In this document: positions 8,308 through 61,979 of the stretch, one piece after another
Layout: each line of letters opens with the position of its first letter
Position numbering within the stretch: the first letter of the stretch is position 1
Origin: Flavobacterium commune
GTDB lineage: Bacteria > Bacteroidota > Bacteroidia > Flavobacteriales > Flavobacteriaceae
NCBI RefSeq assembly: GCF_001857965.1
Contig: NZ_CP017774.1
Location: 124,001-188,000 of the forward strand
Direction of reading: 5' to 3'
Length of the DNA stretch: 64,000 bases
Position numbers and translations under genes: made by a program
Notes under the pieces: generated by a model
The model's input: the letters and a program-made list of their open reading frames with translations, nothing else
What the model was told of the DNA's origin: nothing
Databases searched by the model: none

Positions 8308-8330
8308 TATTTTTGTTTTAAATAAAAAAA

Positions 8331-8650
8331 ACAGACCTATAAGCCGGATTCTGTATTCGCCGAGGCGAACCCTTATCATTTATCTAGCCTTGTTGTTACC
8401 AACAAGATCAAGCTACCTACCCTTCAACAACGGACGAGAAACCCTTAAATGCTGATATACTTGGTATTTCACCGCATAGAGTTTACCTGGTTTCACTACA
8501 GCATTACCTGTACATACTTTCTGTTGCACTTGTCCTATTCGCCGCGGCGAATGACGGGTGTTACCCGCTATGCTTCTCTGTGGTGTCCGGACTTTCCTCC
8601 TTCTTGTCCCGATAGCTATCGGGAACAAAACGGCGATAAGGCGGTCTGTC
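8331..8650 (-). ncRNA. rnpB: RNase P RNA, bacterial type A
   Basis: Read on the minus strand, the 5' end ACAGACCGCC and the 3' end GGCTTATAGGTCTGT form the P1 stem and flank conserved core elements of RNase P RNA, including GGAGGAAAGTCCGG near the 5' end and GCCGGCTTATAG-like sequence at the 3' end. The length of about 320 nt is normal. The RNA is the catalytic subunit that trims tRNA 5' leaders. Three helices carry short GC-rich palindromes (see findings). The ends are placed from the P1 pairing and may be off by several bases. Confidence 0.92.
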
Positions 8651-8653
8651 CCG

Positions 8654-9206: not shown

Positions 9207-10912
9207 ATGGAACAATTTATAGTATCAGCTCGCAAGTACCGTCCGCAAACATTTAATGATGTTGTGGGACAAAAGGCGATTACCAATACTTTATTGAATG
9301 CCATAGAAAACAATCATTTGGCCTCTGCCCTTTTATTTACTGGTCCCAGAGGTGTTGGAAAAACGACTTGTGCCAGAATTCTGGCTCGAAAAATCAATCA
9401 ACCTGGTTATGATGATCCTAACGAAGACTTTGCTTTTAATGTTTTCGAATTGGATGCGGCATCAAACAACTCAGTGGATGATATTCGTAATTTGATTGAT
9501 CAGGTTCGTATCCCACCACAAACCGGAAAATACAAAGTCTATATTATTGATGAGGTGCACATGTTATCATCGGCGGCTTTTAATGCTTTTTTGAAAACAT
9601 TAGAAGAACCACCAAAGCATGCAATTTTCATTTTGGCTACGACCGAAAAACACAAAATCATTCCAACGATTTTATCGCGTTGTCAAATATTTGATTTCAA
9701 AAGAATTACCGTAAAAGATGCTAAAGAACATTTAGCCGAAGTAGCACAAAGTCAAGGGATTGTTTTTGAAGATGATGCTTTACACATTATAGCTCAAAAA
9801 GCCGATGGCGCTATGCGTGATGCTTTGTCTATTTTTGACAGAGTGGTTTCTTATTGTGGAAGCAATTTGACCCGTCAGGCCGTTACCGAAAACCTAAATG
9901 TTCTGGATTATGAAACTTACATTAGTGTAACCGATTTAATCTTAGAAAATAAAATCCCTGATTTATTGATGGCTTTTAATGATATTCTTTCAAAAGGATT
10001 TGATGCACATCATTTTGTAGCCGGATTAGCTTCTCACTTTAGAGATTTATTGGTAAGCAAAACACCTTCCACCTTAAGCTTATTAGAAGCAGGTGAACAG
10101 GCTCAAAAAATGTATGGCGTTCAGGCTCAAAAATGCTCTCAGGAATTTCTTTTACAGGGAATTGCAATTGCCAACGAATGTGATTTAAAATACAAATTAA
10201 GTCAAAATCAACGTTTGCTTGTTGAACTTTGCCTGATGCAATTAGCCTCTATCACTTTTGATGGAGAAAAAAAAAAGCTGAGTCCTTTATAATTCCGCCA
10301 ACGTATTTTAGAAAAAACGACTATTCTATAGTTGAGCAATCTAAGCCTATTGAAAAAGCAGTTTCTGCTCCTGAAATTCACCAAAAAGAAGTTGTAACTG
10401 AAACTACTCCAGCTGCTGAAATTCCAAAAAAAACTGAACCAACAGGACCACAATTTTCAGCATTATCATTATCGAGTATTCGTGCCAAAAGAGCATTAGA
10501 AGACAACAAAAAAGTTGTAGTAAGAGAAACTGTTGACTTACCTACCGAAGCTTTTACGGAAACTGATATGTTATTGCAATGGACTAATTACGCCAAACGT
10601 TTAGGAGACAAAGGTTTCAAAATCATGGAATCTTTATTACTTATTAATGATCCTGTTTTAAACGGAACGACCATTAGTATTGAATTACCAAATGAAGGTT
10701 CGAAATTGGATTTCGAAAAAGAAATGAATGGACTTTTAGGACATCTTAGAGGTCATCTCCACAATCACAACATTACCATAGAAGTAATCGTGAATGAAAA
10801 TGTAGCTGTCAAAAAAGCATTAAACGATCAGGACAGATACAATCGTTTACATGAAATAAATCCAAATATTGATTTGTTAAGAACAACATTTGGATTAGAT
10901 TTAAATGTTTAA
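9207..10912 (+). CDS. dnaX: DNA polymerase III subunits gamma and tau (dnaX, with -1 frameshift)
   Basis: Frame 0 (9207-10292) encodes 361 residues: the clamp-loader AAA+ module with Walker A GPRGVGKTT, Walker B VYIIDEVHML, sensor 1 ILATTEKHK, the SRC arginine-finger motif and the collar domain. It then stops five codons after an A10 run. The -1 frame continues from 10277 to 10912 without a stop. It encodes a Pro/Glu/Lys-rich linker and an alpha/beta C-terminal domain like tau domain V, giving about 568 residues if frames are joined. The cysteine zinc module that usually follows Walker A is missing (ARILARKINQPGYDD leads directly into FNVFELDAASNN). The protein loads the sliding clamp, and tau couples polymerases to the helicase. 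The break is either programmed frameshifting, a mutation or a homopolymer error. Confidence 0.85.
10263..10277 (+). promoter_or_regulatory. dnaX slippery site (A AAA AAG within an A10 run)
   Basis: The run of ten A (10267-10276) followed by G contains A_AAA_AAG in exactly the frame-0 register (10271; 10272-10274; 10275-10277), the canonical dnaX -1 slippery heptamer. A GGAG at 10263-10266 could act as an internal Shine-Dalgarno-like stimulator, although it is closer (4 bases) than in E. coli. The A run is also long enough for RNA polymerase slippage. No strong stimulatory stem-loop downstream was recognised. Confidence 0.6.
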
Positions 10913-61658: not shown

Positions 61659-61731
61659 GACTCGATAGCTCAGTTGGTAGAGCACATCACTTTTAATGAT
61701 GGGGTCCTGGGTTCGAGCCCCAGTCGGGTCA
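61659..61731 (+). tRNA. tRNA-Lys (anticodon TTT), copy 1
   Basis: The 73-base cloverleaf has acceptor stem GACTCGA / TCGGGTC, D-arm AGCTCAGTTGGTAGAGC, anticodon stem CATCA / TGATG with loop CTTTTAA, and T-arm with GGTTCGAGCC. The discriminator is A. No CCA is encoded. Confidence 0.97.
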
Positions 61732-61773
61732 CAAATTAAGTGATTCACTTGAAAAACGTTTTCTGATGCATTT

Positions 61774-61846
61774 GACTCGATAGCTCAGTTGGTAGAGCAC
61801 ATCACTTTTAATGATGGGGTCCTGGGTTCGAGCCCCAGTCGGGTCA
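61774..61846 (+). tRNA. tRNA-Lys (anticodon TTT), copy 2
   Basis: All 73 bases are identical to copy 1, which lies 115 bases upstream. Spacer sequences differ, so either the tRNA alone is held identical by function or the duplication is old. Confidence 0.97.
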
Positions 61847-61847
61847 C

Positions 61848-61880
61848 AAAAGGTTAAGTAAATATTTACTTAACCTTTTT
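61848..61880 (+). terminator. Palindromic terminator after the tRNA-Lys pair
   Basis: A perfect palindrome (61851-61876, AGGTTAAGTAAAT and its complement) with flanking A and T runs lies between tRNA-Lys 2 and tRNA-Leu. Confidence 0.75.
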
Positions 61881-61888
61881 TACTTTTA

Positions 61889-61971
61889 GGCCATGTGGAG
61901 AAACGGTAGACTCGCCATCTTGAGGGGGTGGTGCTCGCAAGGGCGTGAGGGTTCAAATCCCTCCATGGTCA
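61889..61971 (+). tRNA. tRNA-Leu (anticodon GAG)
   Basis: The 83-base class II tRNA has acceptor GGCCATG / CATGGTC with one G-T pair, anticodon stem CCATC / GGTGG around the loop TTGAGGG (anticodon GAG), a long variable arm (TGCTCGCAAGGGCG region) and T-arm GAGGGTTCAAATCCCTC. No CCA is encoded. Confidence 0.93.
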
Positions 61972-61979
61972 CTTTCAAA

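Follow-up and report, generated by a model that had tools for sequence, protein, structure and literature searches.

The window examined here is a 64,000-nucleotide stretch of the Flavobacterium commune genome (NZ_CP017774.1, positions 124,001 to 188,000 of the forward strand). It contains a dnaX gene whose coding sequence is divided between two reading frames at ten consecutive adenines, and this split is both real and conserved. The features of the locus, in window coordinates, are:

9207..10292, + strand: dnaX frame-0 open reading frame, encoding a gamma-like short product of 361 aa from the ATG at 9207 (AAA+ ATPase, lid and domain III)
10267..10276, + strand: A10 slippery run, with GATGGAG before it and GCTGAGTCCTTTATAATTCC after it
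10271..10277, + strand: A_AAA_AAG heptamer, placed in the register that a -1 slip of the ribosome requires; its letters are those of the E. coli dnaX site as given in PMC3711429
10279..10281, + strand: TGA closing the +1 frame, which would end transcripts with A9 or A12
10290..10292, + strand: TAA, the frame-0 stop of the short product, read directly from the sequence
10277..10912, + strand: -1-frame segment, the tau C-terminal region, with 211 codons (10277-10909) and a TAA stop at 10910-10912

Across the run, frame 0 reads GAA AAA AAA AAG CTG AGT CCT TTA TAA. Both frames that do not encode tau close soon after the run, the +1 frame at once and frame 0 after 4 codons. Because the two halves of dnaX are in different frames, the long product can be made only if the run is misread; were the frames joined, the putative tau would comprise 357 + 211 = 568 aa. 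By arithmetic, A8 or A11 would give a continuous frame, whereas A9 would give GAA AAA AAA AGC TGA, an immediate stop. The first-pass annotation had recognized much of this: a dnaX gene with a gamma-like short form in frame 0, an A10 with the heptamer in exact -1 register, a -1 frame open to a tau C terminus of about 568 residues in all, and a need for slippage to reach the long form, with the Thermus-type alternative rightly named. It was mistaken in taking A9 to give one continuous frame. The immediate stop in the +1 frame, a third feature of the site, was absent from it.

The frame-0 product matches Pfam PF13177, PF22608 and PF12169, all above their cut-offs, and NCBIfam TIGR02397 (dnaX_nterm) with E=3.5e-115. 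Its 361 residues are 100% identical to DnaX of F. sufflavum, the nearest named match. The -1 segment matches positions 425-614 of NCBIfam NF011531 (PRK14971, DnaX; 614 positions) with 81 bits and E=8.5e-23, which identifies the tail as the tau C-terminal region. Positions 1-370 of the same model match the frame-0 product with 613 bits; each piece alone is below the cut-off of 685 bits. The tail gave no Pfam match, and a PDB profile search with the tail alignment returned two matches only (E 0.55 and 0.9), neither of them usable. The tail aligns with frame-0 and +1 tails from other genera, and tails of all three polarities (0, -1 and +1) can be aligned together.

The -1 tail is under purifying selection, which supports, indirectly, that recoding does produce tau. 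Its dN/dS is 0.072 against locus L034, 0.083 against L005 and 0.121 against L036, and 0.23-0.45 in the other eight listed pairs (dS 0.84-1.03); values for the N-part are 0.01-0.08. A second run, of eight A's, lies within the tail at 10426-10433.

No second full dnaX was found in the 3.85 Mb genome, where three other N-part matches have E values of 1e-13, 2e-11 and 1e-4. The genome holds 87 overlapping matches to A10, which a hand count reduces to 44 separate runs. Among 11 A10 loci analysed by script (15 were entered), dnaX alone joins two long open frames, with 388 codons leading in and 216 leading out. Upstream of dnaX, an RNase P class A RNA (RF00010, 198 bits) occupies 8324-8652 on the - strand, where mechanical open reading frames are also listed.

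Conservation of the run and of its stops

Our comparison covers 325 loci with a DnaX match. Two truncated and two partial loci were dropped, leaving 321 that were usable, and removal of seven duplicates left 314 unique loci: 118 in a genus set, 143 in a family set and 53 in a farther (phylum) set, with non-random sampling. The genus set was drawn from the 30 best matches of a genus scan, the 80 best of a second match list (15 of whose 80 titles do not carry the name Flavobacterium and are mostly metagenome-assembled genome labels), five from the phylum scan and 12 others, ten of which were chosen for their long frame; one proved incomplete. The genus scan matched 150 of 150 genomes, three of them weakly (G031, G115 and G126, E about 1e-13), and dnaX was not seen in these three. 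Among its listed full-length matches the open frame spans about 360-415 codons, apart from ten in which it is 566-614. The family set combines 139 of the 149 genomes of the family scan (148 genera) with four loci from the phylum scan, and omits the genus Flavobacterium, contig-end or partial places and genomes without a strong match. The farther set consists of 15 phylum-scan loci and 40 picked by hand from the remaining places, two of which were partial.

The run at the dnaX junction is conserved beyond chance. Its length in the genus set is A10 in 111 loci, A11 in five and A9 in two. A run of eight or more A's marks the end of domain III at 300 of the 314 unique loci, including 142 of 143 in the family set and 40 of 53 in the farther set; at least nine are found in 118/118, 141/143 and 40/53 loci of the genus, family and farther sets, respectively. 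As a null, 0 of 1,500 segments of 320 nt in the N-parts of run-bearing genes contain a run of nine or more A's, and 13 of 897 segments further on do. Three A9 rows (L060, L092 and L139) have close relatives with A10, and are either base-calling errors or real changes.

Fourteen loci have no run of eight or more A's. They are L263 of the family set and 13 loci of the farther set, six of which have a G+C content of at least 0.63. In these 13 (L289, L297, L300, L301, L303, L306-L309, L312, L314, L316 and L320) the longest junction run has at most seven A's and dnaX is one long frame, which would mean either a tau-only gene or a different route to gamma.

The stops are conserved together with the run. 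Both non-tau frames are closed within five codons past the run in 274 of the 300 run-bearing loci; at comparison positions elsewhere in these genes the figures are 13% and 11%. For the +1 frame by itself, with L060 and L092 left out, closure within five codons is found in 103 of the 104 genus-set loci with tau in -1 (null 0.44) and in all 12 with tau in frame 0. The corresponding family counts are 109/118 for tau in frame 0 (null 0.35) and 15/20 for tau in -1 (null 0.47), the weakest group; those of the farther set are 19/25 and 12/15. Nulls over all groups range from 0.22 to 0.47.

The codon upstream of the heptamer, codon 354 (GAA), could take a synonymous G that would keep A_AAA_AAG yet shorten the run. 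Among loci with Glu at this position, GAG is absent from all 116 of the genus set and occurs in one of 121 of the family set, namely L271, which has A8. Elsewhere in the same genes GAG makes up 14% (genus set) and 22% (family set) of the Glu codons that precede AAA, and at other conserved Glu columns its share is 4-97% and 15-81%, figures that ignore the kinship of the rows. What is kept, then, is the run and the stops in both non-tau frames, and not the frame of tau.

The frame of tau among relatives

We called tau frame 0 whenever frame 0 was open for more than 500 codons, a rule that decides L319 and L324, which have long overlapping frames. Tau is in the -1 frame in 104 genus-set loci, in frame 0 in 12 and in +1 in one (L060, with A9 and doubtful); the remaining 1 of the 118, L092 from F. 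davisii, also has A9 and is interrupted in all frames. The run and both frames described in the first-pass annotation thus recur in relatives, and the rarity that it implied did not hold up: the arrangement is common in the genus set, and its kind is already in print (PMC3711429). The genus-set loci with frame-0 tau still have A10 or A11. At one of them, L065, A10 is followed by GGCTGAATC in place of the window's GCTGAG, and at that locus the short form is the product of a -1 slip, as it is in E. coli.

The balance is different in the family set, where tau is in frame 0 in 118 of 143 loci, in -1 in 21 and in +1 in four (L149, L245, L258 and L259); each +1 call comes from one assembly, and one miscounted A would alter it. 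In the farther set the numbers are 38 in frame 0 and 15 in -1 (53 loci). L263 (genome G169), one of the family-set loci, has tau in the -1 frame with only A4 at the frame-0 stop (GGAAAAGTAAGGGG). Lacking the A-run, it would reach tau by another route, with the ribosome shifting on a short site, or else its sequence carries a base error.

The frame has changed many times on a FastTree phylogeny of the N-parts, which has 246 rows and in which the window's locus and 35 sampled others stand for the -1 genus-set loci. At least 36 polarity changes are required, or 33 in our main count, which omits the three doubtful A9 rows (243 rows). The minimum is also 33 for the 229 of these rows with a run of at least eight A's, where shuffling the labels 20 times gives 60-69, and 31 in the 209 rows with runs of at least A10. 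These counts come from one quick tree with branch support ignored, and single-genome states may contain base errors. Presence or absence of the run requires 8 changes on the N-part tree.

Candidate mechanisms of slippage

On the strength of these sequence comparisons, we propose that the A10 is a programmed transcriptional-slippage site that gives dnaX mRNAs of mixed length, a reading to which we assign a probability of about 80%. RNA polymerase would add or drop A's on the run. Transcripts with the templated ten A's would be read to the frame-0 stop and yield the gamma-like protein of 361 aa; those with 11 (or 8 or 14) would have fused frames and yield tau, of 568 aa if the number is 11; and those with 9 or 12 would meet the TGA right after the run and yield a gamma-like protein of 357-358 aa. 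One frame in three would therefore give tau and two would give gamma, whatever frame the DNA shows. What we infer is that slippage occurs in F. commune, at some ratio of products, and that it happens during transcription instead of translation.

Several observations favour RNA polymerase over the ribosome. The run is conserved beyond the heptamer, the synonymous G is nearly absent, and no stem-loop was found, either in the 80 nt downstream in the window (z -0.07) or across five sets of 15-25 loci each, where the mean z lay between -0.2 and -0.7; together these argue for transcriptional slippage. So does closure of the +1 frame, which has no role in a -1 ribosomal shift. The four family genomes with tau in +1 point the same way, because their tau is beyond the reach of a -1 shift. 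A further sign is that the base next to the run varies among loci between G, T and C. There are precedents: in Thermus, both DnaX forms arise by slippage on an A9 run (PMC1088944), and transcriptional realignment has been proposed for two-ORF dnaX genes with ten A's (PMC3711429). The literature that we searched yielded no measurement of slippage for a Bacteroidota RNA polymerase. Against a transcriptional reading speak the perfect A_AAA_AAG with a single Lys tRNA species among the tRNA matches listed, the -1 tau of L263 without a run, the weaker closure in the family -1 loci and the single assembly behind each +1 call.

A second possibility is a programmed -1 shift of the ribosome on A_AAA_AAG. 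It would resemble the E. coli mechanism with the two products exchanged, so that the shifted ribosomes would make tau. We consider this unlikely, though it is the strongest of the alternatives. The heptamer is in exact -1 register. Moreover, tRNA-Lys(UUU) is the sole Lys tRNA among the 56 tRNA matches listed, all of which were read for anticodon (150 of 353 first-look candidates were scored), so ribosomal slippage would still be feasible. The only Lys tRNA genes among these matches are in the window itself, at 61659-61972, as two tandem tRNA-Lys(UUU) genes with a tRNA-Leu(GAG). The E. coli SD-like stimulator lies about 10 nt before the heptamer. The F. commune gene has none at that spacing; its GGAG (10263-10266) lies only 4 nt before the heptamer.

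PMC5009743 says that having a single Lys tRNA(UUU) favours ribosomal slippage in E. coli. It also mentions the reversed ribosomal arrangement in a handful of bacteria, one candidate being Chlorobium phaeobacteroides. However, no downstream stem-loop was found, and in this class the ribosome does not recognise Shine-Dalgarno sequences, which are naturally absent from the phylum (PMC9976891 and PMC6847099). Ribosomes without bS21 are described in PMC9976891 as gaining function, and some ribosomes of the class may accordingly read such a sequence. Frameshifting at prfB is reported as low or inefficient in F. johnsoniae in PMC12421855. A ribosomal shift would not explain why the whole run and the +1 stop are conserved, and it does not accommodate the relatives with +1 polarity. 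The weight that the first-pass annotation placed on the E. coli heptamer was for these reasons too great: it is the run, rather than the heptamer alone, that is conserved.

Transcriptional slippage might instead supply all frames, with ribosomes contributing a share of -1 shifts at that run. An A10 followed by G would suit both processes, and in the genus set G follows the run in 103 of the 104 loci of -1 polarity. Nevertheless, many family runs have T or C next, and the comparative data require no second mechanism; we regard joint action as improbable.

A sequencing or assembly error, or a pseudogene, can be set aside almost completely. Homopolymers are error-prone, and the A9 rows L060, L092 and L139 could be errors. 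But A10 is present in nearly all genus-set loci, the tail is under purifying selection and the genome has no second full dnaX that we could find. The record titles of the genus set come from many projects, so a shared base-calling slip is not credible. As a general explanation, sequencing error is ruled out by the relatives. Equally negligible is phase variation at the DNA level, with run length differing between cells: A10 tracts can mutate by replication slippage, but a phase-variable tract should scatter in length and this one is nearly fixed (111 of 118 in the genus set), and a replication gene such as dnaX is hardly one that a cell could switch off.

Relation to known dnaX genes and meaning

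Two-ORF dnaX genes in which ten A's mark the junction and tau depends on recoding have already been published, and the gene in the window belongs to that kind. Antonov et al. 2013 describe 17 two-ORF dnaX genes from 12 genera in which recoding is needed for tau, nine of them with ten A's, and none of the 17 annotated with a programmed frameshift in RefSeq (PMC3711429). The F. commune gene resembles these in its short frame-0 ORF, its -1 ORF with the tau C terminus and its poly-A junction. The reversed kind is also mentioned by Atkins et al. 2016, who point out that the products can exchange roles through a single nucleotide (PMC5009743). Among open-licence papers, PMC3711429 is the only one that we found on dnaX slippage or poly-A transcriptional slippage in Bacteroidetes, and a title and abstract search found no survey of these dnaX polarity changes. 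The present counts extend what was known of two-ORF dnaX genes and the one-base role swap. In contrast to the 2013 study, they cover genus, family and phylum samples, and they take in polarity changes, +1 polarity, closure of two frames and conservation of the run. What is added here is scale, evidence on mechanism and a picture of drift between frames.

The Thermus and E. coli systems each share part of this arrangement. In the dnaX gene of Thermus thermophilus, as in that of F. commune, the shared part ends close to a long A-run, the other two frames are stopped after the run (PMC5009743) and there are two products, which in F. commune are predicted. In Thermus, however, tau is in frame 0, the polarity of 118 of the 143 sampled family loci, whereas tau in F. 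commune is in -1 and needs a slip. With E. coli, F. commune shares the heptamer, the predicted product pair and the single Lys tRNA species (among the matches listed here). The E. coli shift makes gamma, helped by an SD-like element and a stem-loop; in F. commune a shift would make tau, no stem-loop was found and no SD use is expected.

We lean towards a broader interpretation, that dnaX of the Bacteroidota is indifferent to frame. Efficient slippage on A9-A11 would put all frames into the mRNA, the frame in which the halves are joined would be nearly neutral and would drift, and selection would act on the run and its stops.

In F. commune, a core replication protein has no full-length coding sequence in a single frame, and genes of this kind are likely to be annotated as short or broken. 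The relatives form a natural series in which the DNA frame switches repeatedly in both directions while the product pair seemingly persists, which makes it feasible to test what the frame costs in a slippage gene and whether gamma is wanted at all. If dnaX is indeed indifferent to frame, then in most of the sampled Flavobacterium species the long form would depend wholly on transcriptional error.
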